Of a stretch of 64,000 bases of DNA, positions 55,291 to 55,910 are shown piece by piece. Origin of the DNA: Protonemura montana (taxonomy: Eukaryota > Arthropoda > Insecta > Plecoptera > Nemouridae); the NCBI GenBank assembly GCA_947568835.1, contig OX387607.1, positions 15,923,701 through 15,987,700 of the forward strand, written 5' to 3'. A program made the position numbers and the translations under genes. The number at the start of each line of letters is the position of its first letter. Position 1 is the first letter of the stretch. Below the pieces are notes generated by a model. The model had not been told where the DNA came from, searched no databases, and saw only the letters and a program-made list of their open reading frames with translations.

Positions 55291-55910
55291 GTATTTTTTA
55301 TTTGTGGTGTTTAACGACGCACTGTTTTGACATCTGGCCATGTGGCACTGGTCTAATGGCGTCGGTGAATGAGTGGATGATGATGAGGATGATGATGAAC
55401 CTAGCCTAGTCTAGAAGGGAGGAGGTGAAACCTGGTGCCGGCACGTAGCCTACTCCTGTCGGAGACCAAGGGGACCACCGGCTTAATGTCCCTTCCGAAG
55501 GACGGTACAACGCGAACAACAGGATTCCTCCACAAATCTATGCTGTAGAGAGGTTGATAAGCAAGGCGAGTGAAGTTGCTGTACTAACTTTCATCTCTCC
55601 AACCTCTCTCCCGAACAGAACTGGTCATGTGTATGATGGTCACCCATCCAATACCTGACCCAGCGCAGTGTTGCTTAACTTTCATCCCTCCAACCTCTCT
55701 CCCGAACAGAACTGGTCATGTGTATGATGGTCACCCATCCAATACCTGACCCAGCACAGTGTTGCTTAACTTTCATCCCTCCAACCTCTCTCCCGAACAG
55801 AACTGGTCATGTGTATGATGGTCACCCATCCAATACCCAACCCAGCGCAGTGTTGCTTAACTTCAGTGATCTCACAAGAATCGGTGTTTCCAACACGACA
55901 AACCGTTCGG
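55291..55910 (-). mobile_element. Full-length 5S-derived SINE copy B
   Basis: A 620-bp element on the minus strand, flanked by the 8-bp duplication TTTCTCGA (plus strand, 55283-55290 and 55911-55918). Its 5' end aligns with 5S rRNA from about nt 1: AACGG, GTGTTGGAAACACC, then GATCACTGAAGTTAAGCAAC, ending at GGATGGGTGACC (5S nt 92). About 49 bp of unrelated sequence follows, after which the 5S nt 51-92 part recurs, giving 91-bp units (boundaries on plus at 55584, 55675, 55766 and 55857). The body (55291-55583) ends in TTAAACACCACAAATAAAAA, a LINE-like 3' end with an A-rich tail. This is the structure of a 5S-headed (SINE3-type) retroposon with internally amplified head. Confidence 0.88.

Follow-up and report, generated by a model that had tools for sequence, protein, structure and literature searches.

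The genome of Protonemura montana (Plecoptera) carries a SINE3-type element that, as far as the literature covered shows, is apparently new, as it combines an array of 1 to 16 units containing an internal control region with a head predicted to keep the fold of 5S rRNA. A complete copy lies in the 64,000-nucleotide stretch of DNA analysed here, referred to throughout as the window (Table 1). The original prediction had placed a minus-strand element with a 5S-like head and a 91-bp period at 55291-55910; coordinates, strand, head and period are all present, and tandem-repeat analysis of the window finds 3.1 units of this period there. The one-unit form of the SINE measures about 434 bp. Coding capacity is absent, as none of the five open frames of at least 200 amino acids in the window overlaps the copy.

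Table 1. Copies of the 5S-headed SINE in the window, with the parts of the complete copy and the 5S rRNA gene used for comparison
Feature	Position	Strand	Remarks
Complete 5S-headed SINE copy, three 91-bp units	55291..55910	-	Rfam, tandem-repeat and HMM analysis
Head, 49 nt, 5S-like nt 1-50	55862..55910	-	CCGAACGG at start is the helix I 5' strand
Unit 1, 5S-like nt 51-120 plus a linker of ~20 nt	55771..55861	-	Head and unit 1 form the whole predicted 5S-like fold
Unit 2	55680..55770	-	
Unit 3	55589..55679	-	
3' body, about 290 bp	55301..55588	-	Final 24 nt like the 3' end of the RT and RNase H LINE
A/T-rich tail, short	55291..55300	-	
Target duplication TCGAGAAA, 5' side	55911..55918	-	8-bp direct repeat
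Target duplication TCGAGAAA, 3' side	55283..55290	-	8-bp direct repeat
Second copy, three full units and body	25373..25970	-	Start within a unit, position about 55-59
Third copy, without a full unit	58916..59246	-	11-bp target duplication; start at unit position 58
Fourth copy, decayed partial head and about 9.5 units, without body	60383..61268	-	
Ordinary 5S rRNA gene, comparison sequence	47933..48051	+	Same as many 5S copies on contig C11

Two matches to the Rfam model RF00001 occur in the window, namely the 5S gene at 47933-48051 (116.7 bits) and the SINE at 55791-55911, which scores 47.9 bits against a gathering score of 38 (E 7.1e-7). This difference in score, together with 40 substitutions, rejects the head as an ordinary 5S rRNA gene. 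BLAST aligns the units of the window copy with that gene at 84-85% identity over 45-47 columns, in agreement with the 34 of 42 identical positions originally reported for nt 51-92. The 5S likeness had been thought to end at nt 92 and each unit to hold 49 bp of other sequence. The 5S-derived head and the 91-bp unit both stand, but the likeness in fact spans nt 1-120: RF00001 matches at full length in 19 of 20 genomic stretches (40-66 bits; L068 without a match), and thus about 29 of the 49 bp are an altered 5S 3' end that includes the 3' strand of helix I. By sequence comparison, and with box limits as in 5S genes, a 5S-like box A, the core of box C and a portion of the intermediate element (IE) recur in every unit; serial 5S control regions were a correct description of the anatomy of the SINE.

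The family is large. Junction patterns of 33-35 nt, with at most two mismatches, were searched in the whole genome (258.5 Mb in 34 contigs, 11 large contigs accounting for 247.6 Mb), each alongside a reversed control. This yielded 25,133 unit-unit junctions (12,634 + 12,499), 7,605 unit-body junctions (3,847 + 3,758) and 6,022 head-unit junctions (3,033 + 2,989), with 0 in every reversed control. A search of the whole genome for further copies had been proposed, and these thousands of matches answer it; the head-unit junctions also bear out common ends and a shared 5S head, headless copies being a minority of the sample. The sample consists of 30 loci from the best whole-element matches, 30 from the best matches of most of the body, 20 short stretches from the best matches of the headless window copy, and the window itself; some loci overlap. 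Merging left 111 distinct pieces, in which full units number from 0 to 16; the array of 16 runs into the edge of its locus. Since the loci are best-scoring matches and not random ones, unit-number frequencies in the sample are not those of the genome. Picked with a query that lacks a full unit, the 20 stretches carry exactly one unit in 17 instances and 2, 3 and 5 units in the others; a head was called in 18, that of L078 is interrupted and L068 starts less than 30 bp from the edge. As none of these best matches is plainly headless, the idea of headless copies as a separate family was dropped. A plasmid search with the element gave no match.

Evidence for mobility comes from the flanks. Target duplications scoring at least 8 surround 38 of 59 headed copies, compared with 1 of 1,158 mispaired flanks (0.0009); none reaches that score in the other 21. 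This count required the body to position 286 and enough flank, edge-cut or bodyless pieces being excluded. The 8-bp duplication that had been cited as the mark of a single mobile unit is present, and the element is indeed a single unit of mobility, but 8 bp is one value within a family range of 8-15 bp, mostly 11-13. Around the second window copy (25373..25970) a target duplication was sought and none found. Copies with 3, 4 and 14 units are also flanked by duplications, and as these lie outside the array in the 14-unit L021 and the 4-unit L054, the array belongs to one insertion.

The SINE tails consist of AAT or AAAT repeats. Over its final 24 nt the element agrees at 18 positions with the 3' terminus of a LINE that encodes reverse transcriptase (RVT_1) and RNase H (PF00075, 47.1 bits), a match equalled by none of 5,000 shuffles of the LINE 3' region. 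The end of this LINE is common to all seven of its loci, four of which have one same flank, leaving four distinct flanks. Because the 24-nt match is short and ten LINE 3' ends were examined, the LINE is a candidate partner. LINE families with frames of 1239-1261 amino acids (L092, L093, L094) have 3' ends GTGCCGTTAAACCCCAC, GCGCCTATAAACCCTAC and GCGCCGTTAAGCCCCAA that are alike by eye; the first of these, from L092, is the candidate partner end. Target duplications of 8-15 bp and a LINE-like 3' end together point to a LINE-mobilised element of the SINE3 type. The 5' part is 5S-derived with a type 1 internal control region, the copies are dispersed with target duplications of variable length, the 3' end is in common with a LINE (by a short match among ten LINE ends) and the element is short and non-coding. 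From the sequence, the SINE probably has a LINE partner, and we infer transcription by RNA polymerase III (Pol III). TTTT is absent from the 431-nt consensus, which is uninformative, as 26% of shuffles also lack it; it was accordingly dropped as evidence of Pol III use.

Two-sided changes seem to have preserved the entire 5S architecture in the SINE. The unit segment CTGTTCGG pairs with CCGAACGG at the element start to give helix I. The first 120 nt of L072, the best-scoring stretch, equal the majority sequence of 55 headed copies; their unguided folding gives the 5S three-way junction at -45 kcal/mol (z -3.71), a stability that none of 200 shuffles attains. The 5S gene itself gives -43.4 (z -1.86) in the same folding, and the window copy also reaches the three-way junction, at -37.4. 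The 40 substitutions that separate the majority head from the 5S gene fall into nt 1-49 (14), 50-92 (9) and 93-120 (17). Of 34 canonical 5S pairs, 31 are kept, 7 of them with changes on both sides, and 3 are broken, a count favoured by an alignment fitted to the 5S model. Random substitution with equal numbers per region keeps 18.5 pairs (sd 2.5, maximum 28 in 20,000), and when the new letters are permuted across the changed columns 26.0 remain (sd 1.8), with 31 reached in 0.7%. Unguided folding arrives at the junction in 37 of 55 real headed copies (18 do not), compared with 7 of 1,000 randomly substituted 5S genes.

Three sites in the unit separate subfamilies, and two of them, positions 32 and 45, face each other in a stem. 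One-unit copies carry GC (11), AT (11), AC (3) or GT (3) here, with one gap. Counted over the full set of 285 units, AC, which leaves the sites unpaired, is no rarer than AT (21 vs 18), and the two sites thus lend the pairing little support. The predicted stem of the unit, from position 16 to 60, corresponds to the 5S helix IV/V arm. The arm alone gives z -1.65 and -2.05. Neither the whole 91-nt unit (z -1.33) nor the window copy over its opening 435 nt (z -0.29) is unusually stable. One tentative model, which we regard as possible though on the doubtful side, is that the SINE RNA is under selection for the 5S fold, which would allow its uptake by 5S-binding proteins (uL18/uL5, TFIIIA) or the ribosome and place it beside nascent LINE protein. 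A comparable use of SRP9/14 has been proposed for Alu. Under such selection, extra units would add serial helix IV/V arms. Alternatively, the ancestor of the head may have been an older, divergent working 5S gene.

Whether internal units start transcripts can be read from where copies begin. A 5S-type promoter starts RNA ~50 nt upstream of box A, and by this geometry an RNA driven by unit k+1 would begin at position 42-43 of unit k. Among 52 body-bearing copies with at least two units, the head is complete in 40; 6 begin within a unit and in another 6 no head was called, two of the latter (L011, L068) having the fetched edge within 30 bp; edge-cut or bodyless pieces are excluded. Most of these RNAs, then, were not started at an internal unit. 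Whatever their unit number, ten copies begin inside a unit, three of them without a full unit downstream. By BLAST their starts lie at 40, 46, 51, 55, 57, 57, 58, 59, 59 and 65, five of the ten within 3 nt, for which a uniform model gives P 0.0005. As an HMM puts several of them up to 11 nt earlier, the firm starts are the four that a target duplication delimits: 51 (L051), 57 (L030), 58 (window 58916-59246) and 59 (L033, whose duplication shares up to 3 nt with the unit). None of these four is at 42-43. They are close to the base of the predicted stem (16/60), and stalled reverse transcription is the simpler reading. Internal promoters were therefore rejected as start sites, and the idea that the amplified segment matters as a promoter finds no sign of support in the insertion starts.

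The borders of the unit point to how it is duplicated. Both bear the same word AAGTTA, within ...CCGAAGTTAAGC at the start and ...TGAAAGTTAGTAC at the end, and slippage at this word gives exactly the recurrent unit-unit junction TGAAAGTTAAGC. Other parts of the SINE are amplified as well. For instance, body nt 7-48 (42 bp), bounded by ACAGCA, are repeated 3 to about 27 times in L050, L059, L056 and L057, and L052:4-369 is a near-uniform 92-bp tandem array of 5S-like nt 1-92 with joints GGTGACCA/CCGAATGG. Since short-word duplication occurs at several places in the SINE, the promoter segment is not singled out. Many copies, moreover, have one unit.

The mutations carried by the units bear on when arrays form. 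In copies with at least three units, mean divergence is 4.05% between neighbours, 4.6% between other units of the same copy and 4.95% between copies. Rare mutations were counted after excluding those found more than twice outside the array, cut or bodyless arrays being included. Of 93 rare mutations in the 44 arrays with 2-4 units, 7 recur among units of one array (in 6 arrays), compared with a mean of 0.6 and a largest value of 3 under permutation. So few shared mutations indicate that most of these arrays were multi-unit at or soon after insertion, and the excess over the permuted maximum indicates that some short arrays did grow in place. In 15 arrays of at least 5 units, 23 of 77 are shared (in 9 arrays; permuted mean 2.9, largest 11), a mark of growth in place, although more units also mean more chances to share. 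The ratio of observed to independent divergence (columns 20, 32 and 45 excluded) is 0.875-0.88 and lies below the permuted 0.975-0.986, so that some dependence between units remains. Nor does subfamily determine unit number, as the most frequent body haplotype, present in 13 copies, occurs with 1, 2, 3, 4 or 11 units. At unit position 20, which is A or G, 24 three-unit copies show AGG (6), GGG (5), AAA (4), AAG (4), AGA (3) and GAA (2). A is found there in 28 of 41 first units vs 19 of 59 last units, a bias implying that some order is inherited.

Location adds a further dimension. One-unit copies lie at a median relative distance of 0.338 from the nearer contig end (n=25), copies with 2-4 units at 0.098 (n=43) and those with at least 5 units at 0.020 (n=9), edge-cut or bodyless pieces being excluded. 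The Spearman correlation of unit number with this distance is -0.45 (P 0.002) in the 43 copies that came from body or partial-unit queries alone and -0.49 overall. A rise towards contig ends fits growth in place near chromosome ends and, as 2-4-unit arrays are also distal, birth with several units is by itself no explanation. On contig C1, exact arrays and heads among the matches listed stand at 18:7 in the first 2.3 Mb and 1:18 at 2.3-19 Mb (Fisher 8e-6, in bins chosen after inspection of the match lists), then 12:8 at 19-27 Mb and 11:17 at 27-29.6 Mb. Elsewhere on this contig, the stretch G000:C1:30295010-31173290 has at least 31 exact unit-body junctions, all on the + strand among the matches listed; heads occur there on both strands among the matches listed, and the one-sidedness of the junctions may stem from the listing itself.

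We lean towards the reading that a SINE3-type element, transcribed by Pol III from its first base and copied by a LINE, acquired its array mainly through slippage in reverse transcription, with later growth in place. Transcription would start at the first base of the SINE through the 5S-like control region in the head and first unit. The resulting RNA would have a predicted 5S-like domain of 120 nt at its 5' end and, at its 3' end, a segment like the end of the RT and RNase H LINE, and LINE machinery probably copies it into new sites. Slippage between the AAGTTA words that flank the 91-bp segment would take place mainly during this copying. If the enzyme were to stall close to the base of the helix IV/V stem and then re-anneal at a distance of one unit, a new copy could be born with 1-4 units. 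Some arrays would later expand in place, chiefly near contig ends, as other minisatellites of the genome would. In the window copy the first unit completes the predicted 5S-like domain, and extra units may for that reason be tolerated. That duplication belongs mainly to the reverse transcription stage is what we think from the mutation pattern and the start sites.

The strongest competitor, which we nonetheless consider rather unlikely, has one-unit SINEs inserting and arrays forming only afterwards by replication slippage or unequal exchange, as in a minisatellite. The rise of unit number towards contig ends, the array excess in the first 2.3 Mb of C1 (18:7 vs 1:18, among the matches listed) and the rare mutations shared within arrays of at least 5 units all speak for it, as do the wealth of minisatellites in the window and loci and the amplification of other SINE segments. 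It sits poorly with the 7 of 93 shared mutations in 2-4-unit arrays and with neighbours (4.05%), other units of the same copy (4.6%) and units of different copies (4.95%) that diverge so similarly. If instead several fixed source genes existed, a two-unit family, a three-unit family and so on, each passing on its number, then short arrays would mostly behave as multi-unit at insertion, as they do, and the A at position 20 in 28 of 41 first units would also be in keeping. This proposal was rejected, and we hold it improbable, as one body haplotype spans 1 to 11 units and six position-20 patterns occur among 24 three-unit copies.

It is just as hard to credit that serial units are kept since each is a working Pol III promoter, in the manner of mouse L1 monomers. 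Every unit retains the 5S-like box A, part of the IE and the box C core, and the mouse monomers add promoter strength according to the available part of the report (PMC10620060); against this, 40 of 52 multi-unit, body-bearing copies have a complete head, the firm starts lie at 51-59 and not 42-43, and segments of body and head are amplified too. Very improbable is an identity other than a SINE, either a small LTR element with a 5S sequence of the Cassandra/Ajax kind or a DNA transposon making 8-bp duplications. The 5S sequence and the 8 bp at the window copy would suit them, but the duplications range over 8-15 bp, tails are short repeats, copies start inside the element and the 3' end is LINE-like. 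The termini, CCGAACGG... and ...CACCACAAATAA, do not repeat each other in direct or in inverted orientation. For these reasons, including the lack of long terminal direct repeats in one case and the varying duplication length in the other, both a TRIM carrying 5S sequence and a DNA transposon were rejected.

Several known systems offer comparison. Insect SINE3 families include HaSE3, PxSE4, PxSE5, LaSE2 and CsSE2, as well as SINE3-1_TC of Tribolium (PMC3272025, PMC8010984). In the available parts of these papers they resemble the present SINE in a 5S-derived head with boxes A, IE and C, in target duplications and in a short-repeat tail, and PxSE5 also has its 3' end in common with a LINE (PMC3272025, PMC8010984). 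They differ in having one 5S head per element without, in the same parts, a described repeated unit, whereas the present SINE has 1 to 16 or more 91-bp units and, by prediction, a head that retains the 5S fold. Indeed, those excerpts present 5S SINE heads in general as one per element, described chiefly by promoter boxes (PMC3272025, PMC8010984). Among literature titles and abstract openings, no 5S SINE with repeated units was found, which is no proof of absence in print. Cassandra and Ajax likewise place a 5S-derived promoter on a mobile element; as far as the available text goes, however, they have LTRs, Ajax makes 5-bp duplications and its predicted structure is reported to be unlike 5S (PMC10886601). 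Mouse L1 is alike in its variable number of promoter-bearing tandem units within a retroelement but, in the portion available, is a Pol II system with units of about 200 bp at the 5' end of a LINE, and five daughters had 0.6-1.8 units fewer than their donors (PMC10620060). In contrast, the unit here is of Pol III type, lies inside a SINE and gives no sign of internal starts. SVA (SINE-VNTR-Alu) is a composite non-autonomous retroelement with a variable tandem array; the repeat unit of the present SINE differs in being part of the 5S-derived promoter domain.

Other features of the genome were noted in passing. At the right end of C1 (L084) and the left end of C13 (L086), arrays of (TTTGG)n and (AAACC)n are oriented as in telomeres. 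The four other contig ends viewed, one being N in the part shown, lack TTTGG/AAACC arrays, TTAGG arrays are found in 0 of 6 ends and TTTGG arrays are absent from the 64-kb window. For the rice weevil, TTTGG has been proposed as the telomere motif, according to the available part of one report (PMC12134996). On C11, at 0-106 kb, 5S genes recur in a ~9.5-kb repeat with three near-identical 5S copies per period in places listed, and a 6.1-kb segment (L087, G000:C11:2300-8400) has frames resembling histones H2B, H2A, H4, H3 and H1; the H2B frame, the sole one compared, scores 240-244 bits with PDB chains such as 2nqb and 2pyo, which are from Drosophila, and at most 203 bits with the group of single-histone chains that comes next. 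Minisatellites of 6-14 bp lie in the window at 15950-16314, 26777-27312, 28777-29307, 29712-30831 and 43519-43811 and also in L025, L026, L033 and L050, several with long pure-repeat open frames. An open frame at 11362-12468 (minus strand) contains the motif FSILDILN, which occurs in some homeobox proteins, and is a possible host gene exon.

Taken together, the arrays of this family amount to thousands of natural records of when tandem duplications take place, during reverse transcription or later near chromosome ends. If the 5S fold is kept, it would make the question of why SINEs derive from ribosome-bound RNAs testable outside Alu.
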